DNA of 64,000 nt from NCBI RefSeq assembly GCF_024505145.1, contig NZ_JANIAA010000001.1, positions 868,001 through 932,000 on the forward strand, written 5' to 3'. The position numbers and the translations under genes are program-made. The notes beneath the pieces were generated by a model, which was not told where the DNA came from, did no database searches, and worked only from the letters and a program-made list of their open reading frames with translations. This DNA is from Streptomyces rugosispiralis. Lineage in GTDB: Bacteria > Actinomycetota > Actinomycetes > Streptomycetales > Streptomycetaceae. This document shows, in pieces, positions 10,201 to 50,119 of this stretch (the first letter of the stretch is position 1; each line of letters starts with the position of its first letter).

Positions 10201-13200
10201 CGAGGACACCGGCCACCGGCGGCTGGTGGCCTATCTGGTGACCTGCTCCGGCGTCCCGACCCACGCTCCCGACCCGGTGGAGCTGCGCGCCCTGCTCAAG
10301 CGCACCCTGCCCGACTACATGGTCCCGGCCGCCTTCGTGACGCTGGACCGGATGCCCCGCACCGACAGCGGCAAGGTGGACCGGCGTGCGCTGCCCGCTC
10401 CCCCGGACCGCCCGGAGCAGGGCTCGCCGTACGTGGCGCCCCGGACCCCCGCCGAGACGGTGCTGGCGGGCGTGTGGGCCGAGGTGCTGGGCGTCCCCGC
10501 GGTGGGGGTGGAGGACAACTTCTTCGCCCTGGGCGGCGATTCGATCCTGAGCATCCAGATCGTCTCCCGCGCCCGCCAGGCCGGGCTGACGCTCACCTCC
10601 AAGGACGTCTTCCGCCACCAGACCGTCGCGGAGCTCGCGCTGAGCGTCGAGACGGCCCGGCGGCAGCCGCCCGCCGAGACGGCCGGGGCGGTGGCCGGAC
10701 CGGCGCCGCTGACGCCCATCCAGCACTGGTACCTGGACGGGCGGCGGCCCGGGGACCGGCACCACTTCACCATGAGCCACCGGCTGGAGCTCACCGGCGA
10801 CCTCGACGAGGGCGCCCTGCGGCAGGCGGTGGACGCCCTGGTGGCGCACCACGCCGCGCTGCGCACCCGCTTCCTGGTCGTCGACGGGCAGTGGCGGCAG
10901 GAGGTTCTGCCCACCGCCCCCGGTGGCGTTCTGGAGCGGCACGATCTGTCCGGACTGGACGACGCGGGGCGCGCCGAAGCCGTACGGGAGGCCACGGTCG
11001 CGGCCCAGACGGGGCTGGACATCGCCGAGGGGGCCGTGCTGCGGGCGCTGCTGTTCACCTTCGGCCCCGGGCAGGCGCCCGAGTTGCTGCTCACCGCCCA
11101 CCATCTGGTGGTGGACGGCGTCTCCTGGCGGGTGCTGCTCGGAGATCTGGAAACCGCGTACCGGGGCGCCGCCGCCGGTGGCGCGCCCGCCCTGCCCCCG
11201 CCGAGCAGCGCCTTCACCCGGTGGGCCGCCCGGCTGGCGGACCATGTGCGCTCCGGCGGGCTCGACGGCGACCTGGCGTACTGGACGGGCGTGGCGCGCT
11301 CCGCGCCCGCCGCGCTCCCCGTCGACCGCGAGGGTCCCAACACCCATGAGACGGCGGCCACGGTGACCACGGTCCTCGGCCGGGCCGAGACCGAGGCGCT
11401 GCTGCGCCAGGTCCCCGGCGTCTACCGGACGCGGATCAACGACGTACTGCTCGCCGCGCTCGGCCGCAGCCTGGCGCGCTGGACCGGCGGGGACACCGTG
11501 CTGATCGGCGTGGAGGGACACGGTCGCGAGGATCTCTTCGAGGACCTGGACCTCTCCCGTACGGTCGGCTGGTTCACCGCCGAGTACCCGCTCGCGCTGG
11601 CCGTCGACGCCGGGGCGGGGTGGCGCGAGACCCTCCGGTCCGTCAAGGAGCAGCTGCGGGCCGTTCCGCACCACGGGCTCGGCCACGGAGCGCTGCGCCA
11701 GCCGGCCCCCGAGGGCTCCCCGGCCGCGGAGCTGCGCGACGGTCCGTCGCCGCAGATCGTCTTCAACTACCACGGCCAGTGGGACGTGGCCGCGGCCGAC
11801 GAGAGCGCCCCGGGCCTGTACCGCGCCGCCCTCCCGGTGACCGGCCAGGACGCCGCGCCCGGGGAGACCCGCCCGTGTCTGCTGGAGGTCACCGGGGCGG
11901 TCCAGGACGGCCGGCTGGAGCTGGGCTGGAGCTATCCGGCCCGGATGTACGACGAGGCGACCGTGCGCCGGGTCGCTGACGACTGCCTGGCCGCGCTGAA
12001 GGAGATCGTCGCGCACTGCGCGGAGCCCGGCGCGGGCGGGCGCACCCCGTCCGACTTCCCGCTCGCCCGGCTCGACCAGCGCCAGGTGGATCTGATCGCC
12101 GGTGACGGCGGCGCGGTGGAGGACGTGTATCCGCTGACCCCGCTCCAGGCGGGCATGCTCTTCCACGGTCTGGTGGACACCGGTGGCGCCTACTTCGACC
12201 AGATCGCCATCCGGATCGGCGGGATCGCCGACCCGGACGCGTTCGCGGCCGCCTGGCGGCGGGTGGTGGACCGTACGCCGGGCTTACGCACCTCCGTACG
12301 CTGGGAGGGGCTGGCCGAACCGGTCCAGGTCGTCCACCGCCGGGCCGAGCTGCCCACCGTCCGGCTGGACTGGCGGGAGTTGACGCCGTCCGCGCGGGAG
12401 GAGGCGCTGCGGCGGCTGCTGGCCGAGGACCGCGCCGCCGGGATGGAACTCACCTCGGCCCCGCTGAGCCGGATCGCGGTGGCCGGGCTGCCCGACGACG
12501 AGGTCATGCTGGTGTGGACCTCGCACCATCTGATGCTCGACGGCTGGAGCACCGGCCAGGTCTTCGCCGAGGTGTGCGGGACCTACGCGGCACTCGTGGC
12601 CGGGCGTTCGCCCCGGCCGCCCGCGCGCCGGGCCTTCCGGGACTTCCTGGGCTGGCTGGGTGAGCAGGACCAGGAGCGCGCGGAGCGCCACTGGCGCGAG
12701 GTGCTGGCCGGGTTCGGCACCCGCACGCCGCTGCCGTACGACCGGCCGCCCCGGGAGGCGCATCGCACCACCTCGACCGCGCTGACCCGGCTGGAGCTGA
12801 CCGAGGAGGTGTCCGCCCGGCTGCGGGAGACCGCGCGCGGTGGCGGGCTGACGGTCAACACGGTGGTGCAGGGCGCGTGGGCGCTGCTGCTCTCACGGTA
12901 CGGCGGTGTGCGCGACGTCGTGTTCGGCACCACCGTCTCGGGCCGTCCGGAGGGGCTGCCGGGCGTGGAGACGATGGTCGGCATGTTCATCAACACGGTC
13001 CCCACCCGGGCCGTGGCCGAGGGCGGCCGTGAGGTCGTGGCGTGGCTGCGGGAACTCCAGGAGCAGCAGAGCGAGTCCCGCCGCTTCGACTTCGTCGCCC
13101 TCCCCAGGATCCAGGCGCTCAGCGCGATCCCGGCCGGTGAGGCGCTCTTCGACAGCATGGTGGTGTTCGAGAACTACCCCTTCGACGAGGCGTCGGCGGC

Positions 13201-16200
13201 CGGGGCCGGGATCCGGGTTCGGGAGGTGCGGGCCGAGGACTCCACCAGTTTCCCGCTGTGTCTGCGCGCCTATCTCGGCGACCGGCTGGGCTTCGACCTC
13301 GCCTACGATCCGGCGCTGTTCGACGCGGCCACGGTCGAGCGGGCGGCGGCCCAGCTGGAGACGCTGCTGACCGGGATCGCGGACGGCGCCGGGCGGTCGC
13401 TGGACGAGCTGCCGCTGCTGACGGAGGCGGAGCGGCTGCGGGCGGCCGGCGAGTGGAACGCCACCGCCCGGCCGCTGCCGGAGGGCTCGCTGGCCGAGCT
13501 GTTCGCCGAGCGGGTCCGCCACACCCCGGACGCCGTCGCCGTCGCCGACGGCGCCACCTCGCTCAGCTATGCCCGACTCGACGAGTGGGCGGGCCGGCTG
13601 GCCGGTCATCTGCTGCGGTCCGGGGTGCGTCCCGAGGACCGGGTGGCGCTGCTCATGGACCGGTCGGTGGAACTGGTCGTGGCCCAGCTCGCGGTGGTCA
13701 GGGCCGGTGGGGTGTACGTACCGGTGGACGCCCGCGCCCCGCGCGACCGGCGGCGGACGCTACTGGACCAGGCGGGCGCGGCGGTCGTGCTGACGCCGGA
13801 GGAGGTGGCCGCCGCCCGGGAGGGCGAGCCGGTGGCGCCCGCGGTGCCGGTGCACCGGGACCAGCTGGCGTATGTGATGTTCACCTCCGGGTCGACCGGT
13901 GTGCCGAAGGCCGTGGGGGTGCGCCATCGCGATGTGGCGGCGCTCGCCCTCGACCGTGCCTTCGCCGGTGGCGGGCACGCTCGGGTGCCGCTGCATTCGC
14001 CGGTCGCGTTCGACGCCGCCACCTACGAGATGTGGGTGCCGCTGCTGAACGGTGGCCGGGTGGTGGTGACATCGGGCGAGCTGGACGCCGCCGCGGTGCG
14101 CCGTCTGGTGGCCGGGCAGGGGGTGACGGGGCTCTGGCTGACCGCCGGGCTGTTCCGGCTGCTGGCCAGGGACGCGCCGGACTGCTTCACGGGGTTGCGC
14201 GAGGTGTGGACCGGCGGCGATGTGGTGCCCGCGGCCTCGGTGCGCCGGGTGCTGGAGCGCTGCCCGGGGCTGACCGTGGTGGACGGCTACGGGCCGACCG
14301 AGACCACGACCTTCGCCACGTACTTCCCGATGTCCCGCGCCGACGAGGTGCCCGAGGTGGTGCCGATCGGCCGGCCGCTGGACAACATGCGGGTCCACGT
14401 CCTGGACTCCAGGATGCGGATCGTGCCGCCGGGTGTGGTCGGCGAGCTCTTCGTCGCCGGTGAGGGGGTGGCCCGTGGCTACCTCGGCCGCCCAGGACCG
14501 ACCGCCGCGGCGTTCCTCCCCGATCCTCACGGGCCCGCCGGGGAGCGGATGTACCGCACCGGCGATCTGGCGCGACGGCGGCCGGACGGCACGGTGGAGT
14601 TCCTCGGCCGCGCCGATGACCAGGTCAAGGTGCGTGGTTTCCGGATCGAGCCGGGCGAGGTGGAGGGGGTGCTGGCCGGGCATCCCGAGGTGGCGGATGT
14701 CGCGGTGGTGGCCCGCGCGGACGGCCCCGGCGGCAAGCGGCTGGTGGCCTATGTGGTGGCCGCCGGCGACGCTCCGGTGGAGGGTGACCGGCTGCGGGCG
14801 TACGCGGCCGAGCGCCTGCCGGACTACATGGTGCCGTCCGCCGTCGTCCCGCTGGAGGCGCTGCCGCTCGGCCCCACCGGGAAGCTGGACCGCGCGGCGC
14901 TGCCCGCCCCCGCCCCGGACACCCGCCGGACGCCCTACCGGGCGCCGCGCGAGGGGGCCGAACGGGCCGTGGCGGCGGTCTGGGCCGAGGTGCTGGAGGT
15001 GGAACGCGTCGGCGCCGGGGACAACTTCTTCGAGCTGGGTGGCGACTCGATCCTCTCCATCCGGCTCACCTCACGGCTGCGGGAGGTGCTCGGGGTGGAG
15101 CCGTCGCCCCGTCTGGTGTTCACCCATCCGACCGTCGCCGCCCTGGCCGCGGCGCTCGGTGGCGCGGACGGCCGCGGCGCGGACCGGCCCGCGCCGATCA
15201 CACCGGTGGCCCGGGACGGCGAGCTGCCGCTGTCGTATCCGCAGCAGCGGCTGTGGTTCCTGGACTCCTTCGCCCCCGACAGCGCCGAGTACATCACCCC
15301 GCTGGCGCTGCGGATGCGGGGAGCCCTCGATGTGGCCGCGCTCAGTGCGGCGCTGACCGCGCTGGTGGCCCGGCACGAGTCGCTGCGGACCACCTTCGAC
15401 GCGGTGGACGGCCGTGGGGTGCAGATCGTGCACGCCCCCCGGGAGATCCGGCTCGACCCGTACGACCTGTCCCATCTCCCCGCCGCCGAGCGGGAGGCGG
15501 AGCTGCGGGAGCTGCTGGCGTACGAACGGGCGCGCCCGTTCGATCTGCGGCGCGGCCCGCTGCTGCGGACCGGGCTGATCCGGCTCGGCGCCCAGGAGCA
15601 CATGCTGAGCCTGACGCTGCATCACATCATCACGGACGGCTGGTCCACCGGTGTGCTCACCGGCGATCTGCGGGAGCTGTACCGGGCGGCGCTGAGCGGC
15701 GAGCCCGTGGCGCTGCCCCCGCTCCCGGTGAGTTACGCGGACTTCGCAGCCTGGCAGCGGACCGAACTCACGGCTCCCCGGGCGGATGAGGAACTGGCCT
15801 ACTGGACACGGCAGTTGACCGGGGTGCCGCCGCTGGAGGTGCCCACCGACCGGCCCCGCCCCGCGGTGCGGACGAAGAACGGCGACACCGTGGAGTTCAC
15901 GGTGCCCGCCGGGGTGAGCGCACGCCTCAAGGAGTTCGGGCAGGCGCGGGGCACCACCCTGTTCATGACGCTGGTGGCGGCGGCCCAGATCCTGCTGGCC
16001 CGGCTGTCCGGCGGACGGGACATCGCGGTGGGCACCGTCACCTCGGGTCGGGAGCGCCCCGAGGTGGAGCGGCTGATCGGCTTCTTCGTCAACACCCTGG
16101 TGCTGCGCTCCACGGTCGATCCGCACGCCCGCTTCGGCGACTTCCTGGCCGAGGTGCGCGGCACCGTGCTGGACGCCTTCGCCCATCAGGCGGTGCCGTT

Positions 16201-19200
16201 CGAGCGGGTGGTGGACGAGGTGCGGCCGGTGCGGGACACCAGCCGGACACCGCTGTTCCAGGCGATGGTGGTGTTGCAGAACGCCCCGGGGCAGGCGCTT
16301 GAGCTGCCCGGTCTGGAGCTGGCGGACGTGGAGCTCGACAGCCGGACCGCCGCCTTCGACCTCACCTTCGAGTTCGCCGAGGCCGAGGGAGGTGTGCTGC
16401 GCGGGCTGATCGGCTACAGCACCGATCTGTTCGACGCCTCGACCGTGGAGCGGATGGGCACGGCCCTGCGGGCGCTGCTCGCCGGGATCGCGGAGGATCC
16501 CGAGCGGCCGGTGGGCGCGCTGCCGCTGGCCACCCCGGCCGAGCTGCGGCGCACCCTGGTCGAGTGGAACGACACCCGGCTGGAGGCGGACCGGGCCACG
16601 CTGCGCGAGCTGTTCGAGCGGCAGGTGGCCGTCTCGCCGGATGCCACGGCCGTGCGGTACGGGAAGGGCGATCTCACCTTCGCCGAGCTGGACACGGCCG
16701 CGAACCGGCTGGCGCACCGGCTGATCGGCCGGGGCGTGGGGCCGGAGCGGCTGGTGGCGCTGGTGCTGCCGCGTTCGGTGGAGATGCTGGTGGCGCAGCT
16801 GGCCGTGGCGAAGGCGGGCGGCGCGTTCCTGCCGGTCGACCCCGGCTATCCGAAGGAGCGGGTGGCGTTCATGCTGCGGGACGCCGCGCCCTCGGTGGTG
16901 CTCGGCGACGCGGCCTCGGTGTGGGCCGAGGAGGGCCCCGCCGGGCCGCCGCCACTCCGTGGTCTGACGCCGGACCATCCGGCGTATGTCATCTACACCT
17001 CCGGCTCCACCGGTGTGCCCAAAGCGGTCGTGGTCACCCATGCCGGGCTGGCCGGTTTCTCGGCCGCCGCGGCCGCGCACTACGACGTACGGGCCGGGGA
17101 CCGGGTGCTGCAGTTCTCCTCCCCCAGCTTCGACGCCTCCGTCCTGGAGCTGTGTGTCTCGCTGCCCCGTGGCGCGACGCTGGTGATCGGCGACGAGGGC
17201 CCGCTGCTGGGCGAGCGGCTGGCCGAGGTGCTCGGCGGGCAGCGGATCACCCATGCGCTGATCCCCCCGGCCGCGCTGGCCACCGTGGAGGAGACGGATC
17301 GGCGGACCGCGCTGCCGGATCTGCGAACCCTCATCGTCGGCGCCGACGCCTGCTCCGCCGAGCTGGTGGACCGCTGGGCACCTGGGCGGCGGATGGTCAA
17401 CTCCTACGGCCCGACCGAGGCCACGGTGGTGAGCACCTGGTCCGGACCGCTGACCGCCGGGTCGGGGGTGCCGCCGATCGGCCGGCCGATCCCGAACACC
17501 CGGGTCTACGTACTGGACGAGGCGCTGCGCCCGGTGCCGGTGGGTGTGGCCGGGGAGCTGTATGTGGCGGGCACGAGCCTGGCGCGCGGCTATCTGGGCC
17601 GTCCGGGGCTGACCGCCGCGCGGTTCGTGGCCGATCCGTTCGGCCCGGCGGGCGGCCGGATGTACCGCACCGGCGATGTGGTGCGGTGGACCGGCGACGG
17701 TGAACTCGTGTTCCTGGGCCGGGCCGACGACCAGGTCAAGGTGCGGGGCTTCCGGATCGAACTGGGCGAGGTGGAGAGCGCGCTGCGGCGCAGCCCGGAG
17801 GTGCGGGAAGCGGTGGTCGCCGTACGGGAGACCGCCCCGACACCGGAGCAGCCCTCCGGCGGGAAGCGCCTGGTGGGCTATGTGGTCCCGGCGCCGGGCA
17901 CCTCGCCGACCGCCGCCTCGCTGCGCGACGTCCTGGGGCGGACCCTGCCGTCCCATATGGTGCCGTCGGCGTTCGCCACCCTGGACGCCCTTCCGCTCAC
18001 GGCCAACGGCAAGGTGGACCGCGGGGCACTGCCCGATCCGGACCCGGTGCCCGTCACCTCCGGCGCGGGACATGTCGCCCCGCGCACCCCGATGGAGCAC
18101 CGGATCGCGGACATCTGGGCCGATGTGCTCGGCCTGGAGGGGGTGGGCGTGGAGGACAACTTCTTCGAACTCGGCGGGGACTCCATCCTCAGCATCCAGG
18201 TGGTCTCCCGCGCCCGGCAGGCCGGGCTGCGGATGACCACCAAGGACCTGTTCACCCATCAGACGGTGGCGGCGCTCGCCACCGTGACCACGGCCGAGCG
18301 GGACGAGGGCCGCGCGGAGCCGGTGACCGGGTCGCTTCCGCTCACCCCGATCCAGCGCTGGTTCTTCGCCACCCACACCGTGAACCCGCGCCACTTCAAC
18401 CAGTCCACACTGCTGGAGCTGCACCAGGAGCCGGACGAGAAGGCGCTGGAGGGGGCGCTGGCCGCGCTCCTGGCCCACCATGACGCGCTGCGCACCCGGT
18501 TCACCGAGGAGGGCGGCGAGTGGCACGGCCACGTCCCGGAACCGGACGGCGACGGCGCCGTCCTGGACCGCCACGACCTGTCCGGGCTGCCGGCCCGGGA
18601 GGCGGACGCGGCCATGGAGCAGGCGGCCGACGCCCTCCACGCGGGCTTCGACCTGGGCCGGGGGCCGCTGCTGCGAGCCGCGCTGTTCCGCTTCGGCGAG
18701 GCCAGGCGGCCGTTCCTCTTCCTGACCGCGCACCATCTGGTCATCGACGGGGTGTCCTGGCGGATCCTGCTGGACGACCTGGACATCGCCTATCAGCAGG
18801 GCGTACGGGGCGAACCGGTGGACCTCGGCACCAAGACCACCGCCTTCCGCGACTGGGCGCGGCGGCTCGCGGAGCATGTGGCCGGGGGCGGCCTGGACCA
18901 CGAGGCCGACCACTGGTGCGAGGCCCTCGACGCCCGGCCGCTGCCGGTCGACCATCAAGTGGCCGCGCCTGGGCCCGAGATCGGTACGGTGCCGGTCGAG
19001 CTCGACGAGCGGGACACCGAGGCGCTGCTGCGCTCGGCGCCCACCGCCTACCGCACCCGGATCAACGATGTGCTGCTCGCCGCGCTCGCGCTGGCGCTGT
19101 CCCGCTGGACGGGCCAGGAGCGGGTGTCGGTGGAGCTGGAGGGCCATGGGCGCGAGGACATCCTGGACGGTGTCGATCTCTCCCGTACGGTGGGCTGGTT

Positions 19201-40667: not shown

Positions 40668-42239
<1,572 letters not shown>

Positions 42240-42263
42240 CGCCCCAGCCGGCCCGTAGTCTCG

Positions 42264-42349
42264 CCGAGCCGAGCTGGCCCGCACCGAGCCGAGCTGGCCC
42301 GCACCGGGCCGAGCCGGGCCGGGCCGCGCCGCGCCGCGCCGCGCCGCGC
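42264..42349. repeat. 20-bp tandem duplication followed by a GCGCC run
   Basis: A 20-base unit starting CCGAGCCGAGCTGG is repeated head-to-tail at 42264-42303, then a partial copy grades into a period-5 GCGCC tract up to the stop of the minus-strand ABC gene. It fills the gap between two convergent genes and looks like slippage; a terminator role is possible. Confidence 0.8.
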
Positions 42350-45222
42350 TAGAGCGTCTGCCGCCGCACCAGCTCGTGCAGTTTGCCGCCCGCGATGGCC
42401 ATCAGCTCGGCCGGGGCGCCCTGCTCCACGATCCGGCCGTCCTCCATGACCAGTACGCGGTCGGCGTCCATGACGGTCGACAGCCGGTGGGCGATCACCA
42501 GCCGGCTGGCGTTGAGCCGGCGGGTGCTGTCGATGACGATGCGCTGGGTCTCGTTGTCCAGCGCGCTGGTGGCCTCGTCGAAGAAGAGGACGCGCGGACG
42601 GCGGATGAGGGCCTGGGCGATCATCAGCCGCTGCCGCTGGCCGCCGGAGATGGCGCCGCTGCCGGAGATCATGGTCTGGAGCCCCATGGGCATCTGCCGG
42701 ATGTCCTCGGCCAGACCCGCCAGTTCGGCGGCCTCCATGGCCTCCTCGGGGGTGTACGGCTCGGCGCCCCGGATGCAGTCGAGGATCGTGCCGCCCAGGG
42801 GCTGGGCGTTCTGGAGCACCACCCCGCACTGGCGGCGCACGGCCGCCTGGTCCAGGGCGGCGAGGTCCTGGCCGTCGTAGAGCACACTGCCGGACACCGG
42901 CCGTTCGAAGCCGATGAGCAACCGCAGCAGCGTCGACTTGCCGCAGCCGCTCGGGCCGACGACGGCCACGAACTCGCCCGGCCGGATCTCCAGCGAGACG
43001 TCGTCGAGCACCAGCGGCCCGTCGTCGCCGTAGCGGAAGGTGAGGCTTCGGGCCCGGAGGTCACCGGAGAGCTGCCCCGGCTGGGCGCTGCCGCCGCGCA
43101 CCTCGGGCGGCTCGTCCAGGATCGGCTTGACCTGCTCGAACATGGGCAGGACGGCAACCACGGAGACCAGGGAGTTGGTGAGCTGCGTGAGCGAGGTGAG
43201 CAGCATGGTCACGGAGGTGTTGAAGGTCAGGAAGGCGCCCGCCGACATGCTCCCCCGCGCCGGACCGGCCAGCAGCATGAACACGGCCAGGGAGACCAGC
43301 GGGAGGTAGACGGAGTCCAGCACCTGGGTGAGGTTCTTGATGCGCCCGGTGCGCTGGTGCAGATCGCGGGAGTGGGCGAAGCCACGGGCCCAGGCCGCGT
43401 AGGCGAAGTTCTCGGCCGCGGCCACCCGCAGCTTGGGCAGACCGCGCAGGGTCTGGAACGCCTGGTTGTTGAGCTTGTTCTCGCTCTCCACCAGCCGTCG
43501 CTGCCAGCGCACCTGCCACAGCCCCATGCCGAGGAAGACCCCGGAGACCACCAGCAGTACGGCGATCACCGCGAGCGCCAGCGAGGCGCTGTAGTACAGC
43601 AGCAGGGCGAGGTTCATCACGCCCACGGTGCCGGCCTGGAGGACCGTCGGGGCGATCCCGGACATCACCCGGCGCATGGTGCTGATGCCCAGTGCCGCGC
43701 TGGCCAGCTCTCCGGTGGAGCGCTGGGCGAAGAAGGTGGTGGGCAGCCGCAGCAGCCGGTCCCACACCGCGGGCTGGAGGGTGGACTCCAGCCGCCCCTC
43801 GAGACGCAGCAGCGTCAGGTTCTGCAGCAGCATGAAGGCGGCCGCGACGACACCGGCGACGATCAGGGCCAGGGAGATCTGGACGATCGGACTCTTCTCG
43901 GCGCGGGGTACGAAGCCGCCCAGCACCTGGCCGGTGGCGAGCGGCACCAGCGCGCCGAGCGCCACCGTCACCAGCCCGCTGATCAGGAGGTTGCGGACGT
44001 CCCCGGCGGCGCCGCGCACGCTGAAGCGCATCAGCCGCCAGACCGTCATCGGCCGGTCGGGCAGCGGACGGTAGAACATCACGCCGCGCGGCTCGAACTC
44101 CTCCGCGTTGCCGCCGCCCACCCGGATCCGCAGGCCGGAGGCGGGGTTGACCGCCTCGTACCGGCCGCGCCGCCACAGCAGCGCCACCGGCGCCCCGGAC
44201 TTGGCGCGGTAGCCCACCAGCGGTCCGGCGTCGTCCCGCCACCACTGGCCCTCCAGCCGGACGGCGCGGGTGCGGATCCGGGCGTGGGCGGCGATGCGCT
44301 CCACCGGGTCCGTACGGTCGTCGGTGGCGCGGCCCCTCGGCGGGTCGGGCAGGTTGATCCCGGCGGCGTCCGCCACGGCGCGGCACACCGCGTGCACGGC
44401 GTCGTCGGTGCTCTCCTCCGACGGCCGCCGGTCCCGCCGGGGCCCTCCGATGGAGGCGATCAGCGCCTGGTCGGCGCGGGTGCGCACGGCCTCACCGGCC
44501 CGGATGCCGGCCGCCGTACGGTCGGCGTGGGCCCGCTCCATGGTCTCGATCCAGCGGTCCACGGCGGTGCCGAGGCGGTACTGCTGGTTGACCATCCGCT
44601 GCCACAGCGCGCCGTCGATCAGCAGGTCACCGGCGGCCTGGGCGCTGTACTCGGCGCCGTAGCGCACACTGCCGGGCGGCACCGGAAGCCACAGCAGATC
44701 CTCGTCGGCCGCCTCCGCCTCGGACGCGGCACCACCGTCCAGCGGGGCCTGGAAGAGGACGCCGAGGCTGCGGCTCACCCCGAGCGCCACGGCGTGCTCC
44801 AGCGGGGTGGGCGGGGTGTCCTGGAATCCGCCGTCCCCGTAGGCGCCGTACGGATCGTGGGCCTGGGCCGTGCCGTACGCGTCGTACGCCTCCGGGCGGT
44901 ACAGCTCGCGCAGCGGGATCCGGCGCACCAGGCAGTCCTGCGAGGGCCTCCCCAGCAGGGTGTGGCGCGGTCCCTCGACCGGGCCGGGGAGCGCCGCGCC
45001 CGTCTCCAGGCGGCCGAGGAAGTGCCATTGCCCCTCCTCGGCGGCGTCCACCGCGAACAGGTCCAGGGCGCCGCCGACGACGAGCCAGAGCACCTGCGGG
45101 CCCTCCAGCGGGAGGCTGCGCAGCCCGGCGCAGTCGACGGGCGTGCCGAGGGCGCCCAGCGCCTGCACCACCGCGTCGCCGCCGTCCGCGGCCACCGCCG
45201 CGGCCGGGTGAACGGACGCCAT
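42349..45222 (-). CDS. NHLM-type bacteriocin ABC transporter (permease/ATPase)
   Basis: A 957-residue half transporter. Residues 1-~330 form a long soluble N-terminal region without C39 catalytic residues; about six membrane segments follow (residues ~400-690), then an ATPase with Walker A GPSGCGKST, signature ISGGQRQRL and Walker B VLFFDEATSALD. The layout matches the NHLM bacteriocin system ATP-binding subunit, which pairs with a peptidase-bearing ABC protein. Its ATG lies one base past the stop of that partner gene, so the two are co-translated. Likely role is export of the double-glycine peptide. Confidence 0.93.
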   Translation of the reverse strand: MASVHPAAAVAADGGDAVVQALGALGTPVDCAGLRSLPLEGPQVLWLVVGGALDLFAVDAAEEGQWHFLGRLETGAALPGPVEGPRHTLLGRPSQDCLVRRIPLRELYRPEAYDAYGTAQAHDPYGAYGDGGFQDTPPTPLEHAVALGVSRSLGVLFQAPLDGGAASEAEAADEDLLWLPVPPGSVRYGAEYSAQAAGDLLIDGALWQRMVNQQYRLGTAVDRWIETMERAHADRTAAGIRAGEAVRTRADQALIASIGGPRRDRRPSEESTDDAVHAVCRAVADAAGINLPDPPRGRATDDRTDPVERIAAHARIRTRAVRLEGQWWRDDAGPLVGYRAKSGAPVALLWRRGRYEAVNPASGLRIRVGGGNAEEFEPRGVMFYRPLPDRPMTVWRLMRFSVRGAAGDVRNLLISGLVTVALGALVPLATGQVLGGFVPRAEKSPIVQISLALIVAGVVAAAFMLLQNLTLLRLEGRLESTLQPAVWDRLLRLPTTFFAQRSTGELASAALGISTMRRVMSGIAPTVLQAGTVGVMNLALLLYYSASLALAVIAVLLVVSGVFLGMGLWQVRWQRRLVESENKLNNQAFQTLRGLPKLRVAAAENFAYAAWARGFAHSRDLHQRTGRIKNLTQVLDSVYLPLVSLAVFMLLAGPARGSMSAGAFLTFNTSVTMLLTSLTQLTNSLVSVVAVLPMFEQVKPILDEPPEVRGGSAQPGQLSGDLRARSLTFRYGDDGPLVLDDVSLEIRPGEFVAVVGPSGCGKSTLLRLLIGFERPVSGSVLYDGQDLAALDQAAVRRQCGVVLQNAQPLGGTILDCIRGAEPYTPEEAMEAAELAGLAEDIRQMPMGLQTMISGSGAISGGQRQRLMIAQALIRRPRVLFFDEATSALDNETQRIVIDSTRRLNASRLVIAHRLSTVMDADRVLVMEDGRIVEQGAPAELMAIAGGKLHELVRRQTL

Positions 45223-45223
45223 G

Positions 45224-47506
45224 TCAGTGCTCCTTCATCAGCTCGGCGTACGGGCCTCCGGCGGCGGCGAGGTCCTCGTGCCGTCCGCGTTCGACGACCG
45301 TGCCGCGGTTCAGGACGAGGATCTCGTCGCTGTCCCGCACGGTGCTGAGCCGGTGGGCGATCACCACACACGCACAGCCGCGGCGCCGCAGGTTGTCCAT
45401 GACGAGCTGCTCGGTCCGCGCGTCCAGGGCGCTGGTGACCTCGTCGAGCACCAGCACGCTGGGGCGGCGCACCAGGGCGCGGGCGATCTCCAGCCGCTGC
45501 CGCTGGCCGCCGGAGAAGTTGCGGCCGTCCTGCTCCACCCGGCAGTGGATCCCCTCCGGGCGCCGTGCGATCACATCGTCGTAGAGCGCGGCGTCCCGCA
45601 GGGCCTCCACCACCGCCTCGTCCGGGATCGACGGGTCCCACAGCGCCACGTTGTCCCGCACGGTCCCCTCGAACAGGAAGATCTCCTGGTCGACGAAGGA
45701 GACGGAGGCGGCCAGCGCACCGCGGGGGATGTCCTCCAGGCGCTGTCCGTCGATGCGGATGACCCCTTCCCAGGGAGCGTAGAGGCCGGAGACTAGCCGG
45801 GAGACGGTGGACTTGCCGCTGCCGGAGGCGCCGACCAGCGCCACCTGCCGGCCGGGGCCGACGGACAGCGAGAAGTCGCGCAGCAGCGGCTCGTCCAGCG
45901 GGTTGTAGCCGAAGGTGATGTTCTCCAGGGTCACCTGCCCGGTCAGCCGGCGGGTGTCCTCGCGCGGCTCGTCGCGGGTGTAGAGCGAGTCCACCGGGAA
46001 GTTCTCGACGTCCTTGAGCCGGGCCACGTCGGCGGAGAAGTCCTGGATGCGCCCGGCCACCCCGTTGAGCCGGGTGATGGGCGCGGTGAAGCGGGTCACC
46101 AGCGCCTGGAAGGCGACCAGCAGACCGATGGAGATATGGCCCTCGACGGCCCGCAGCCCGCCGATCCAGAGGATGAGGGCGCTGTTGAGCGTGGCGAGGG
46201 TGGGGGCGACCACGGCCAGTACGGAGCTGGGCACGCCGAGGCGCTGCTGCTCCTCCAGGGTGATGGCGTGCTGACCGGCCCAGCGGCGGAAGTAGCCCGC
46301 CTCGCCACCGGTGGCCTTGACCGTCTCGATGAGCTGGAGACCGGTGTACGAGGTGGTGGTCAGCCGCGCGGTGTCGGCCCGCAGCTTCTGGGTCCTGGTG
46401 GCCCGCAGCCGCACCACCACCCGTATCGCCACCACGTTGAGCAGCGCCAACCCGACGCCCACGCCGGTGAGTTGGGGGTCGTAGGTCCACAGCAGCACGG
46501 CGTAGAGCACCACGACGACCCCGTCGACGGCCGCGGCGGCCAGATCACGGGCGAGCGTCTCGGCCACGGTGTCGTTGGAGCGCAGCCGCTGGACCAGGTC
46601 GGCCGGGCTGCGCTGGGCGAAGAAGGTGACGGGCAGCCGCAGCAGATGGCGCAGGAACCGCGCGCTGCTGAGGGTGGAGGAGATGATGCGCCCGCGCAGC
46701 AGGTTCGCCTGCTGCACACCGGTGAGCACGGCGGTGAGGACCACCGCCACCGCCATGGACGCGAACAGCGGCTGAAGCGTCGAGTCCTGGCCGGCGATCA
46801 GGAAGGTGTCGATGAAGGTGCGGCTGAGCGCCGGGACCGCGGCGCCCACCGCCACCAGCAGCAGGCTGGCCAGCAGCGACGCGAGCAGGGTGCCGGTGGT
46901 GCCGCGCATGCGCGCGGGCAGGGCGCCCAGCACCCCGGGGCGGCGCCCGCCCCGGCGGAAGGAGTCCTCGGGTTCGAAGACCAGGACCACACCGGTGAAG
47001 CTGGTGTCGAACTCCTCGATGGGGACGAAGCGGCGCCCCTTGTCGGGGTCGTTGATGTGGACGCCGCGCTTGCCGAACCGCCGCCCCATGCCGTCGTAGA
47101 CGACGTAGTGGTTGAACTCCCAGAACAGGATGGCCGGGGCCTGGACCTCCACCAGGGCCTCGGGCTCCATCTGCATGCCCTTGGCGCGCAGGCCGTAGCT
47201 CCGGGCGGCCTTGAGGAGATTGCTGGCGCGCGAGCCGTCCCGGGAGACACCGCAGGCGATCCGCAGCTCCTCCAGGGGCACATGGCGCCCGTAGTGTCCG
47301 AGCACCATGGCGAGCGACGCCGCACCGCACTCCAGGGCCTCCATCTGGAGCACGGTGGGGGTGCGTACGGTACGGCGCCGGGACTTCCTCGGTCCGCCTC
47401 CGCCACGCGGGGCGCGCCGCCGTCCGCGGGCCGGCTGGGGGCGGCGTGCCCCGCTGCTTCCGGCGGGTGCGGGCCGGGGCGGTCCGGCCTCGTTCGTCGC
47501 GGTCAC
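45224..47506 (-). CDS. C39 peptidase/ABC exporter of the bacteriocin cassette
   Basis: A 760-residue bifunctional exporter that cuts double-glycine leaders and moves the peptide across the membrane. A basic N-terminal tail precedes the C39 domain: MEALECGAASLAMVLGHYG with nucleophile C60, EFNHYVVYDG with H133, and NDPDKG with D153. Then come about six membrane segments and an ATPase with Walker A GASGSGKST and FSGGQRQRLEIARAL. GTG at 47506 overlaps the upstream stop (GTGA), so I prefer it to a TTG four codons earlier. Confidence 0.94.
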   Translation of the reverse strand: MTATNEAGPPRPAPAGSSGARRPQPARGRRRAPRGGGGPRKSRRRTVRTPTVLQMEALECGAASLAMVLGHYGRHVPLEELRIACGVSRDGSRASNLLKAARSYGLRAKGMQMEPEALVEVQAPAILFWEFNHYVVYDGMGRRFGKRGVHINDPDKGRRFVPIEEFDTSFTGVVLVFEPEDSFRRGGRRPGVLGALPARMRGTTGTLLASLLASLLLVAVGAAVPALSRTFIDTFLIAGQDSTLQPLFASMAVAVVLTAVLTGVQQANLLRGRIISSTLSSARFLRHLLRLPVTFFAQRSPADLVQRLRSNDTVAETLARDLAAAAVDGVVVVLYAVLLWTYDPQLTGVGVGLALLNVVAIRVVVRLRATRTQKLRADTARLTTTSYTGLQLIETVKATGGEAGYFRRWAGQHAITLEEQQRLGVPSSVLAVVAPTLATLNSALILWIGGLRAVEGHISIGLLVAFQALVTRFTAPITRLNGVAGRIQDFSADVARLKDVENFPVDSLYTRDEPREDTRRLTGQVTLENITFGYNPLDEPLLRDFSLSVGPGRQVALVGASGSGKSTVSRLVSGLYAPWEGVIRIDGQRLEDIPRGALAASVSFVDQEIFLFEGTVRDNVALWDPSIPDEAVVEALRDAALYDDVIARRPEGIHCRVEQDGRNFSGGQRQRLEIARALVRRPSVLVLDEVTSALDARTEQLVMDNLRRRGCACVVIAHRLSTVRDSDEILVLNRGTVVERGRHEDLAAAGGPYAELMKEH

Positions 47507-48309
47507 GGGAGCAGCCAATCGATGGGGTGCTGGGCGTCCAGGTGGACGGTGCCGTCGGTCAGGGTCATGGAGCCGAGGGCGAACGGCGGGCCGTCGGGGG
47601 ACGACCAGCGGTAGCCGGAGCGGGTTCCGGAGCTGCGGTCGAGGCGTACCTGGACGGCGACCGGCGGGCCGTGCTTGGAGAACTCCTCGCCGAGTTGCTC
47701 ACTGCCGAGGTAGGAGCCGATCTGCTGGCTGGACTGGGCGGTCCGGCCGACGGCCCGCACCTCACCGCGGAGCACACCGTAGGTCTGCGTCGGCGCGGAC
47801 TGCACACCGAGGTCGACCGACGCGCCCACCCGCACCGAGGCCGCCCGGTCCGCGGGGACGTACAGGGTCGCCACCAGGGGGTCGCCGGAGTGTCGGACCC
47901 GCTCCACGGAGGCCACGTTCGCGCCGGTGTTCAGCACGGAGCCGATCGAGGCGGAGACGGTGGTGAGGCGGCCGGCGGCGATGGTGCGCACGACGGTGGT
48001 GCCACGGGTGGTGCGGACCTTCAGCAGCGGCGCGCCCGCCGGGAGGGTGCTGCCCTCCTGTGCGAGCACGGAGGTCACCTGGCCCGAGATCGGGCTCTGC
48101 AGCACATAGCTGCCCTGCCCGTGGGTGAGGATCCCGGTGGCGTCGAGGGTGTTGGACACGGTGCCCGTGACGGCCCATACGGCGGCCCCGGCCATGACCA
48201 CCACCGTGACCGCCAGCGCCAGCCATCCCTGGGGGCGGGCGTAGCGCACCGGCAGGTCGATGTCCTCTGCCGACTGTGCCTTGGAGAGGGCCTGCTGGCG
48301 GAACTGCAC
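47503..48309 (-). CDS. HlyD-type secretion protein of the NHLM system
   Basis: A 268-residue membrane-fusion-like protein. One membrane helix (about residues 28-47, WLALAVTVVVMAGAAVWAV) follows a short cytoplasmic tail. A biotinyl-lipoyl-like strand region (VLQSPISGQVTSVLAQEGSTLP, and VRTIAAGRLT) comes next. It is much shorter than Gram-negative HlyD because no outer membrane needs to be spanned. GTG start with GAGGAAAG upstream; the stop overlaps the C39 exporter start. Likely forms the outer part of the peptide exporter. Confidence 0.9.
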   Translation of the reverse strand: MQFRQQALSKAQSAEDIDLPVRYARPQGWLALAVTVVVMAGAAVWAVTGTVSNTLDATGILTHGQGSYVLQSPISGQVTSVLAQEGSTLPAGAPLLKVRTTRGTTVVRTIAAGRLTTVSASIGSVLNTGANVASVERVRHSGDPLVATLYVPADRAASVRVGASVDLGVQSAPTQTYGVLRGEVRAVGRTAQSSQQIGSYLGSEQLGEEFSKHGPPVAVQVRLDRSSGTRSGYRWSSPDGPPFALGSMTLTDGTVHLDAQHPIDWLLP

Positions 48310-48366
48310 GAGAGTCTTTCCTCAACCGCGAAGGGAGTGATCCAAAAGGGTGCCGTGGACCGCCGA

Positions 48367-48395
48367 GTGCCCCGGACCAGGCAGGCCCGGGGCAC
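48367..48395 (-). terminator. Hairpin between the peptide gene and its exporter genes
   Basis: GTGCCCCGG (48367-48375) and CCGGGGCAC (48387-48395) form a perfect 9-bp stem with an 11-base loop, starting 22 bases after the peptide stop on the transcribed strand. There is no U-tract. A partial terminator or 3'-end protector here would let the peptide gene outproduce the transporter genes. Confidence 0.65.
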
Positions 48396-48416
48396 AGGGA
48401 AGGCGGTGTGTCAGCC

Positions 48417-48635
48417 TCAGAGGCTGCCGACGACCCCACCGACGATGCCGGTGGTGTTCAGGCCGGTGACGCCGTCAACCGTGCCGGTGACGGTGCCGAG
48501 GGCGCCGGTCACCGGGCCGGTGACGGTGTCGACGGTGCCGAGGACGTCGCCCACGGGGTTGCCGATGCCACCGGCCACGTTGTCCAGCTCGGCGTCGGAG
48601 ATCTCCTGGGTCGCGACCTTGGGCGCGTTGTTCAT
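48417..48635 (-). CDS. Double-glycine leader bacteriocin-like precursor peptide
   Basis: A 72-residue precursor. The leader (residues 1-23) has ATQEISDAELDNVAGG, the typical acidic leader ending Gly-Gly cut by C39 peptidases. The predicted core (24-72) is 49 residues, rich in Gly, Thr and Val, with Asp the only charged residue type seen. It has no Cys, Lys or Arg, and repeats of the type GTVDTVTG / GTVTGTVDG. With no cysteine it cannot form lanthionine rings, although similar peptides tend to be labelled lantipeptides. GGGAG lies about 8 bases before the ATG. It is the first gene of the export cassette. Confidence 0.88.
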   Translation of the reverse strand: MNNAPKVATQEISDAELDNVAGGIGNPVGDVLGTVDTVTGPVTGALGTVTGTVDGVTGLNTTGIVGGVVGSL

Positions 48636-49096
48636 TGTTGCGTCTCCCTTGGGTGACTGTCTCGTTGAGCTTGCAACAGCGCATGGGTGCCGAGGGGAAT
48701 CGGCTCCCGCGGCATGGTCACGGGGCTCCGGAAGGAACCGGGGATCCGTGGATGCCGAGCGCGGAATGGGATGTAACCACGGGGCTCGCCCCGTTGCGAA
48801 TCAGCCAAGTCCGGAACCGGGCATTCCGCCACTTTCCGATCACACGACGGGCACAAGTGCACACCTCACCGGCGCCGTTCCCTCACAGAAAAGTCACCGA
48901 GCCGACCCGGCGGCGCGTCCCTTGTGCGAGGTGACGCGCGTCATGTCGGGCCTGGCCACCACGGTTGGAGCCGAGGTGGCACACGAGCGGGGGCGCACAC
49001 CTGGCATGTGTGTAACAGGTGTGCCGATCACTTGAAGAGCGGGCGAACGAAGCGACATGCGGCGTCGGGCGGCACGGGAATGCGACATGTGCGACT
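48636..49096. other. Intergenic region upstream of the peptide gene, 461 bases
   Basis: Should contain the promoter of the peptide-export operon and the 3' end of the quinone reductase transcript. CACACCT (48996-49002) and AGGTGTG (49017-49023) could form a 7-bp stem downstream of the reductase. Small open frames here lack ribosome binding sites; I see no further gene. Confidence 0.5.
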
Positions 49097-50119
49097 TCAA
49101 GCCACCCGGCCCTCCTCCGGCACCCCCTCGTCGTCCAGTACCGGTCCGGGCGCGGTGCCGTCGCCGAACGGGCGCCCGCCCAGCTCCTCGCGGTGATGCG
49201 GCGTCAGCCACCCGGAGAGGTCGGGGCCGAGCGGAACGATGCGGCGGGGGGTGATGTTGGTGTGCACCTGGTAGTAGTGGCGCTTGATGTGGTCGAAGTC
49301 GACGGTGTCCCCGAAACCCGGCGTCTGGAAGAGATCACGGACATATCCCCACAGCACCGGGTCCTCGCTGAGCTTGTTCCGGTTGCACTTGAAGTGGCCG
49401 TGGTACACGGCGTCGAACCGGACCAGCGTGGTGAACAGCCGGATGTCGGCCTCGGTGATGGTGTCGCCGACCAGATAGCGCCGCGTGGCCAGCCGCCCGG
49501 ACAGCTCGTCGAGGCGGGCGAAGAGCCGCCGGTACGCGTCGTCGTAGCTGTCCTGGTGCTCGGCGAAGCCCGCCCGGTACACACCGTTGTTCACATCGCG
49601 GTAGATGCCCTCCGCCACGTCGTCGATCTCGTCGCGGTGCTCCTCGGGGTACAGATCCGGGGCGCCCTCGCGATGGAGGGCGGTCCATTCGGTGGCGAGG
49701 TCCAGGGTGATCCGGTGGTAGTCGTTGGTGACCAGCCGGCCACTGGGCACGTCCACCACCGCGGGCACGCTCACCCCGCCCGGATATCCCGTCTCGCGGG
49801 CGTCGTACGCCTCGCTGAGGAACCCGATGTCCAGCACCGGGTCCCGGTCCCCCGGGTCCAGGGTGAAGCGCCAGCTGCGCTCGTCCTGGATGGGGTCGGT
49901 GATGGCCAGCGAGAGGGTCGGCTCCAGGCCGAGCAGCCGCCGTGAGACCAGCGCGCGGCTCGCCCAGGGGCAGGCCCGGCTGACCACCAGCCGATAGCGC
50001 CCGGCCTCCACCGGCCAGCCGTCCCGGCCGTCGGCGGTGATCCGGTCGGCGAAGTGCGGCGTGGAGCGGCGGAACTCCTCGCGCGGTGTCTCCTGGTCAG
50101 CGGTGTTCAACGGGACCAC
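49097..50119 (-). CDS. Xi-class glutathionyl-hydroquinone reductase-like protein
   Basis: A 340-residue member of the YqjG/ECM4 family, which reductively removes a thiol from hydroquinone adducts. The catalytic motif is SRACPWASR with C50. ITDPIQDERSWRFT is followed by the conserved ETGYPGGVSVPAVVD and VTNDYHRIT. The C-terminal GST helical domain has YLVGDTITEADIRLFTTLVRFDAVYHGHFKCN. Actinomycetes use mycothiol rather than glutathione, so the cosubstrate is probably mycothiol or another thiol. GTG at 50119 has AAGGG about 6 bases upstream. Stands alone, divergent from the EamA gene. Confidence 0.92.
   Translation of the reverse strand: MVPLNTADQETPREEFRRSTPHFADRITADGRDGWPVEAGRYRLVVSRACPWASRALVSRRLLGLEPTLSLAITDPIQDERSWRFTLDPGDRDPVLDIGFLSEAYDARETGYPGGVSVPAVVDVPSGRLVTNDYHRITLDLATEWTALHREGAPDLYPEEHRDEIDDVAEGIYRDVNNGVYRAGFAEHQDSYDDAYRRLFARLDELSGRLATRRYLVGDTITEADIRLFTTLVRFDAVYHGHFKCNRNKLSEDPVLWGYVRDLFQTPGFGDTVDFDHIKRHYYQVHTNITPRRIVPLGPDLSGWLTPHHREELGGRPFGDGTAPGPVLDDEGVPEEGRVA

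Follow-up and report, generated by a model that had tools for sequence, protein, structure and literature searches.

The 64 kb of Streptomyces rugosispiralis DNA analysed here (the window, part of a genome of 11.0 Mb) contained a cassette of four genes for a short double-glycine (GG) peptide without cysteine, a HlyD-type protein, an ATP-binding cassette (ABC) exporter of the NHLM type with a C39 peptidase domain and a second ABC protein. This raised the question of which peptides such an exporter serves and what becomes of them. We propose, with a probability of roughly 60%, that the cassette serves a family of peptides whose genes are dispersed and co-regulated; the peptides are likely unmodified and probably act at the hyphal envelope.

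Dispersed genes that share one leader

The exporter and its peptides were followed in 151 genomes, namely that of the window and 150 others spread evenly over the genus. These genomes share kinship, so the counts were not independent and Fisher values for the association between exporter and peptide overstated the evidence. The exporter, called with TIGR03796 at an expectation value E<=1e-200, was present in 112/151 genomes with one match in each. A first profile, of the main peptides, matched 107/151 genomes, often with a second match to the leader only. With a wider profile (A2; at most 39 candidates scored per genome, part of the matches listed) leader peptides were found in 109/151 genomes, and 51/151 had two or more matches. 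All 109 peptide genomes were among the 112 with the exporter, as were all multi-match genomes (51/51), and the genomes that lacked the exporter gave no leader-peptide match (0/39). In three genomes (G026, G036 and G113) the exporter was found, with the lowest scores, without a leader-peptide match; the cargo there may be of another kind.

The surroundings of 54 dispersed genes, spread over 47 of the 51 multi-match genomes, were read in stretches of about 4-16 kb, cut where a contig ended. These were short genes with the same constant leader and other cores, and no NHLM exporter stood beside them. Clustering made in this analysis sorted the cores into 16 groups (nine families and seven singletons). 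No relative of the C39 exporter that covered the peptidase domain was encoded near any dispersed gene within these stretches (0/54), and two loci contained generic ABC proteins only, with about 30-33% identity to the exporter. There was no common partner gene either. The commonest neighbour family, which resembled a helix-turn-helix regulator by eye, occurred in 7/54 loci, and this was a lower bound because the neighbour counts rested on an open reading frame (ORF) rule using GC content at third codon positions (GC3), which found HlyD in 36/80 of the main loci described below. Within one core family the neighbourhood was often kept between genomes, as orthologues would keep it, and one family had 17 members in 17 genomes with conserved cores. 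The start codon was unclear in three dispersed genes (L116, L138 and L149). One Cys was present in 10/54 dispersed cores and Lys or Arg in 17/54. A core family of seven with a single Cys (L087, L094, L110, L112, L127, L129 and L137) could form a disulphide-linked dimer.

A promoter-like motif upstream of cassette and dispersed genes

Genomic relatives of the precursor were encoded at 338 places. The best 80 of these 338 loci were analysed and formed two sets, group A (L003-L018, the window's clade, n=16) and group B (broader Streptomyces, n=64). The motif CGTGNTTWSATC, or CGTGNTT(T/A)(G/C)ATC, was found upstream of both the cassette and the dispersed genes. At a distance of <=250 nt upstream it was present in 16/16 loci of group A, 56/64 of group B and 33/54 dispersed genes, and the 4.16 Mb of other DNA from the same loci gave 0 matches, both strands being counted. 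In the main loci the motif was shared by descent; dispersed genes with otherwise unlike upstream DNA also kept it. Moreover, many of the main and of the dispersed genes had, as judged by eye, (C/T)TGG or TGATTGG/TGATTCG about 15 nt ahead of the motif.

The pattern CGTGNTTTGATC gave 128 sites in 88 of the 151 genomes versus 18 for a reversed control pattern, and a listed leader peptide followed 53-153 nt downstream of 98/128 sites. This share was 91/106 for the variant CGTGCTTTGATC and 7/22 for the other three variants. Identical sites at L156 and L166, in the peptide-less genomes G109 and G063, were followed after 58 nt by an ORF of about 960 amino acids (aa) instead of a peptide gene and may represent another target of the regulator or chance. 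In the whole window genome CGTGNTTWSATCC had two matches, namely the site of the cassette at 48769-48781 and one on C40, which was rejected as a cargo promoter since it lay inside an ORF of 136 aa. When one mismatch was allowed, the 64-kb window had 1 match against a mean of 1.15 in shuffles, which is no rarer than chance.

The cassette and its precursor peptide

The four genes formed one tight operon at 42349-48635, all on the minus strand (Table 1), with a gap of 107 nt, an overlap of 16 nt and a gap of 1 nt in gene order. An earlier note on this DNA, made from the sequence alone, had described the operon with these coordinates and this order, an NHLM-type exporter, a leader ending NVAGG and a 49-residue core without Cys, Lys or Arg. 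All of this was borne out, both ABC proteins scoring above the cut-offs of TIGR03796 and TIGR03797, and of the GTV/DTVTG-type repeats that it had reported a loose similarity remained and a regular array did not. The peptidase-bearing exporter (ABC1) aligned over nearly its full length with PCAT1 (4ry2, residues 51-759) and with ComA (8hf4, residues 54-757).

Table 1. Features of the peptide export cassette, with positions in the window
Feature	Position	Strand	Evidence
Precursor peptide gene, 72 aa	48417..48635	-	ORF and ribosome-binding site; 310 homologues; adjoins HlyD in 80/80 loci
GG leader, 23 aa, MNNAPKVATQEISDAELDNVAGG	48567..48635	-	Homologue alignments
Predicted mature core, 49 aa, no Cys/Lys/Arg	48420..48566	-	Composition
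Strong stem-loop directly after the precursor stop codon, before HlyD	48367..48395	-	Folding
HlyD-type membrane-fusion/adaptor protein, 268 aa	47503..48309	-	Best family TIGR03794, 144.1 bits (cut-off 156.2; model 421 aa); PF13437, 48.7 bits
C39 peptidase ABC exporter (NHLM_micro_ABC1)	45224..47518	-	TIGR03796, 1001.5 bits (cut-off 853.3); PF03412 (Peptidase_C39), 124 bits
Peptidase-free second subunit of the ABC exporter (NHLM_micro_ABC2), 957 aa	42349..45222	-	TIGR03797, 888.1 bits (cut-off 709.4)
Promoter-like motif CGTGGTTACATCC (134-146 nt ahead of the ATG of the precursor gene)	48769..48781	-	Motif scan
TGATTCG, possible upstream half of the promoter (spacing to the motif 15 nt)	48797..48803	-	By eye; putative role

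The precursor gene started with ATG, and the ribosome-binding site AAGGGAG lay 8 nt ahead of it. The gene was taken to be real beyond chance because the homology search gave 310 homologues at E<=0.01 and the gene adjoined that of the HlyD protein in all 80 kept loci, where the precursor was 69 to 74 aa long. The core (IGNPV...VVGSL) had a mass of 4466 Da and a grand average of hydropathy (GRAVY) of 0.79; it contained 13 Gly, 11 Val and 10 Thr and was anionic with an isoelectric point (pI) of about 4. Core composition was read for the best 120 of the 310 homologues, in which no Cys, Lys or Arg was found (0/120); those with organism names were all from Streptomyces. The GG/PCAT leader pattern has been reported to consist of three or four hydrophobic residues at -4, -7, -12 and -15 (PMC7018657). 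The window leader had three of these four, namely V at -4, L at -7 and I at -12, with Thr at -15. In 58 genes of group B, a simple count gave a ratio of nonsynonymous to synonymous substitution (dN/dS) of 0.54 for the core and 0.26 for the leader; by this count the core changes faster than the leader, yet is under constraint. In group A the 9 genes were too few for a usable number. As to the amphipathic or self-assembling nature that the earlier note had considered, AlphaFold gave no confident fold, with a predicted local distance difference test score (pLDDT) of 53.5.

A hairpin of like shape and place was present after the precursor gene in most of 16 other loci that were folded, although the sequence differed in group B. 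It was weak in L012 and L015. The shuffles used with this folding kept base content only. An Rfam scan of 42000-49500 gave zero matches and a Sigma-70 scan gave zero sites. The window neighbours (GST, EamA, a PucR-type regulator, MFS, TetR and PMT) were rejected as parts of the cassette, being clade-specific to the window.

Modification and the lantipeptide label

Among the best 120 of the 310 homologues, those with organism names were mostly labelled 'type A2 lantipeptide', as the earlier note had pointed out for GG peptides of Streptomyces. This label is not supported by the composition of the peptides or by their gene neighbourhoods. A class II (type A2) lanthipeptide was rejected since 120/120 listed homologues were without Cys and no LanM accompanied the cassette. 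In the window, no modifying enzyme was encoded between or directly beside the four genes, and neither LanM nor an adjacent radical SAM enzyme was found among the window neighbours or in nine neighbour families scanned. LanM (PF13575) was present in 44/151 genomes and SPASM in 80/151. Among the 109 peptide genomes, 26 had LanM and 83 did not, 59 had SPASM and 50 did not, and 35 had neither; LanM was thus rarer with the peptide (26/109) than without it (18/42). The statement of the earlier note that the peptide cannot be a lanthipeptide agreed well with these counts.

The only NCBIfam match of the precursor was TigB, with 18.6 bits versus a cut-off of 70, over leader and core; a TigB-type ribosomally synthesized and post-translationally modified peptide (RiPP) was rejected, the score being far below cut-off and no radical SAM enzyme being found among the neighbours scanned. 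The Pfam family L_biotic_typeA matched with 20.3 bits, below its cut-off of 21.7 bits. The NHLP/N11P precursor models TIGR03793 and TIGR03798 gave no match at E<=0.01 in the NCBIfam scan, and the leader had only 23 aa. Neighbour families were then counted by searching the 80 loci with tblastn for every ORF that ten reference loci contained, and no modifying-enzyme family near the cassette was common to groups A and B, in line with the enzyme-free cassette that had been described before. On this survey no candidate modifying enzyme appears to accompany the cassette as a whole, and the core is likely unmodified. Elsewhere in the window genome (G000), a LanM gene at C17:63265-67809 (L108) lay near a C39 exporter (TIGR03796, 540 bits), probably as a separate lanthipeptide cluster, and the second LanM gene was at C45:4320-5429.

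Relatives and gene neighbourhood

The HlyD gene lay 3' of the precursor in every one of the 80 loci, ABC1 was present in 79/80 and ABC2 in 76/80, and the absences were all at contig ends. In L007 (S. violaceusniger NBRC 13459, about 11150-16281) both ABC1 and ABC2 matched only in pieces, probably because of a broken cassette or assembly errors. The cassette was found in Streptomyces only: in a class-wide sample of 393 genomes from 122 genera (E<=1e-6, scoring limited to 15 candidates in each genome) 34/393 matched, all from the window's genus (1/122 genera).

Beyond the four genes, only one family, a protein of 402 aa encoded at a distance of 7 kb, reached both groups (7/16 loci of group A and 4/64 of group B). 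In a count with the GC3 rule, MFS proteins at 5-8 kb had been merged into a single family although they were unlike (5 loci of A and 26 of B). The own neighbours of group A were each present in at most 9/16 loci. Group B had a richer set. An alpha-lytic-type secreted protease was encoded in 61/64 loci, divergently and upstream of the peptide (e.g., L020:5375-9383); it was not seen in the window's clade and might trim the secreted peptide. A SpoIIE-type phosphatase (SpoIIE/GAF), likewise not in the window's clade, lay upstream in 30 to 52/64 loci depending on the reference locus. A thioesterase-type protein was present in 31 to 36/64 loci, and a Ppx/GppA gene lay 3' of the cassette in 29-30/64. 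A haem-oxygenase-like iron enzyme and a methyltransferase were encoded 7-9 kb downstream in 18/64 loci each; most of group B lacked the pair, as did group A, and in L021:17543-19897 and like loci it may tailor the peptide or be unrelated. Finally, the 5' untranslated region (5' UTR) in group B (e.g., L069:9874-10000) had a nearly invariant hairpin, the CTGTCCCCAGAGGGGGCCGC region, between the motif and the start codon. We did not claim it as an RNA element: in 16 group B loci 4/24 pairs were changed on both sides and the covariation term was -0.13, which was uninformative because the sequence was too conserved.

Proposed mechanism and its weighing

Export of the peptide by the cassette is very likely. 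The C39 domain would cut the leader after Gly-Gly, the constant leader would act as an address label read by this domain, and ATP hydrolysis by the ABC1/ABC2 pair, together with the HlyD adaptor, would drive export. The dispersed peptides would use the same exporter. The motif may serve a single regulon as its promoter or as an activator site, and in S. coelicolor this regulon would be under the control of the two-component system SCO5282/5283 (PMC6629963). The hairpin after the precursor stop codon might keep exporter levels below precursor levels, and it could be the reason why the S. coelicolor peptide transcript rises more than the exporter transcripts. Once outside, the peptides would most likely act by altering the surface or envelope of the hyphae and not by killing, which is the weakest step. 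With one cassette and one cargo, the window genome would represent the simplest form. In its fuller version, we hypothesized a one-exporter system with swappable cargo, where a fixed promoter and leader were copied round the chromosome in front of new cores, yielding a co-regulated set of unmodified, secreted peptides that remodel the hyphal surface, all served by a single C39 NHLM exporter that was mislabelled as lantipeptide machinery; we consider this version evenly balanced between right and wrong.

Several points weigh against the proposal of a dispersed, co-regulated family with one exporter. When the window genome was searched three times by homology for a second cargo, no other match better than E 0.4 appeared, and since this genome shows one cargo, the multi-cargo claim rests on its relatives. 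Weaker C39 exporters exist, such as that on C17 of the window genome (540 bits), and could carry some of the cargos. The HlyD protein scored under the cut-off of its own family. The full motif was missing within 250 nt of 21/54 dispersed genes and 8/64 group B loci, and it had first been seen on part of the same loci on which it was counted. Among the CGTGNTTTGATC sites, 30/128 had no listed leader peptide downstream and 11/128, in ten genomes, were in genomes without any peptide match. We read 20 of these 30 sites, including all 15 of the CGTGCTTTGATC variant. A leader peptide was present at 4/15 (L157, L158, L160 and L167, of which L167 is the site of a cassette itself) and absent from 11, which brought the total for CGTGCTTTGATC to 95/106; the five sites read of other variants had none. 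The four additional peptides were not independent predictions because they agreed with the count of unlisted profile matches. Two LanM genes and four SPASM matches elsewhere in the window genome make a trans-acting enzyme possible, and the iron enzyme and methyltransferase of 18/64 group B loci must be counted on the same side. Secretion, cleavage and chemistry, finally, are predictions from sequence.

Among the other explanations, a set of antibacterial peptides survived best. Class II bacteriocin export has a typical layout of a GG leader, a C39 ABC exporter and an accessory protein, and most bacteriocins are cationic. The cassette matches this layout and could serve unmodified peptides of the class II type, the dispersed genes being alternative bacteriocins. 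Variable cores with one exporter resemble the GG peptides of pneumococci (PMC7018657), and the S. coelicolor locus has been labelled a bacteriocin in two papers (PMC5733086, PMC6414726). However, the cores were free of Lys and Arg in 120/120 listed main-type homologues, the window core had a pI of about 4, and no immunity-like partner recurred by the dispersed genes, where the commonest family reached 7/54. Bacteriocin activity, which the earlier note had suggested, has thus become less likely, and we regard it as an unlikely explanation.

A slightly lower chance was given to a RiPP whose Thr, Val or Ile residues are altered by an enzyme from another locus, such as LanM or, as in the case of TigB, a radical SAM enzyme. 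The Thr-rich core and the TigB profile as sole NCBIfam match are compatible with it, and enzymes that could act in trans were available in the window genome and, 7-9 kb downstream of the cassette, in 18/64 group B loci. However, the TigB match was far under its cut-off, no enzyme family near the cassette was common to both groups, and many peptide genomes were without LanM (83/109), SPASM (50) or either (35), LanM being found in 26/109 versus 18/42.

It was more doubtful still that the peptide is a secreted signal, namely a cue outside the cell to which a two-component system of the envelope responds. GG peptides are known to serve cell-to-cell communication as well (PMC7018657), and expression of the S. 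coelicolor peptide depends on a two-component system (PMC6629963), but a hydrophobic, variable core of 49 residues is long for a pheromone and no gene, hence no receptor, recurs beside the dispersed genes. Least probable was that the dispersed genes are decaying, functionless duplicates and only the cassette peptide matters, because, in spite of the 21/54 genes without the full motif, the strongly varying cores and the three unclear start codons, the cores were conserved within families (17 members in 17 genomes), the frames were open, and the motif and ribosome-binding site were kept upstream of unlike cores.

If the proposal of one exporter and many co-regulated cargos is true, a peptide of this kind, found in 109/151 sampled genomes of the genus and yet filed as a lantipeptide, would offer a model genus a peptide regulon that is open to testing and whose trigger, SCO5282/5283, is known. 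Cargo genes would be marked by a rare DNA motif and exporter substrates by the leader, possibly providing a secretion tag for small peptides in Streptomyces. The regulon may also bear on the control of pellet formation in liquid culture, because SCO0753 was the top gene in a dispersed strain of S. coelicolor (PMC6629963).

Comparison with known systems

The cassette as such is already known. In S. coelicolor, SCO0753-SCO0756 encode a peptide, a HlyD protein and two ABC proteins, followed by the exopolyphosphatase SCO0757 (Arroyo-Perez et al. 2019, PMC6629963). The gene order was the same as in the window, orthology being judged by order and family, and the Ppx/GppA gene at the 3' side was shared with the group B loci mentioned above. 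The authors noted the lack of cysteines in SCO0753, the conservation of the four genes in many species and the likelihood of export, and they raised an altered hyphal surface as a possibility (PMC6629963). In their sco5282-D125G strain no gene was more strongly overexpressed than SCO0753, which was nearly silent in the null mutant and depended on SCO5282/5283 for its expression (PMC6629963). The portions of this account that deal with SCO0753-0756 contain neither dispersed cargo genes nor the motif, and no description of either was found among open-access papers, largely in their titles and abstracts. Thus, the dispersed genes and the shared motif are the new part; the earlier note had overlooked these as well as the S. 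coelicolor locus.

Other reports touch single genes of this locus. SCO0756 was among the efflux genes up in a ppm1 mutant (PMC5882110) and slightly down, 0.6-fold, in a copper-homeostasis mutant (PMC6414726), and SCO0753 was one of those with raised expression in an aor1 mutant (PMC5733086). In S. melanosporofaciens STM-2, a gene that may belong to the window family was labelled lantipeptide, with a Peptidase_C39 gene in the region (PMC13047742). The GarR/GarS paper (PMC11043171) was set aside since it concerns a different two-component system.

The NHLP/Nif11-related precursors (Haft et al. 2010, PMC2887384) have the same exporter families TIGR03794/03796/03797, a GG site and hypervariable cores, and their genes may also be distant from the export genes. 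However, their leaders have about 70-83 aa and modifying enzymes belong to them, whereas the window leader has 23 aa and no such enzyme comes with the cassette. Class II (type A2) lanthipeptides share with the window peptide a short leader that ends in GG and differ from it by Cys and LanM. TigB peptides, methylcyclopropylglycine RiPPs, are made with a radical SAM enzyme; the likeness to them was a weak profile match over leader and core only, and no radical SAM gene was found among the neighbour families scanned. SapB is a lanthipeptide with Cys, unlike the window peptide. Like the predicted peptide, SapB is a small, secreted, hydrophobic Streptomyces peptide with a link to morphology, and it was compared with SCO0753 in PMC6629963.

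The nearest working analogue is the pneumococcal RtgAB. In RtgAB and ComAB/BlpAB, a peptidase ABC transporter exports several co-regulated GG peptides and the leader directs the choice (PMC7018657). Unlike these systems, the Streptomyces cassette combines an NHLM-type ABC1 with a separate ABC2 and a HlyD-type protein, and many of its putative cargo genes lie far off.

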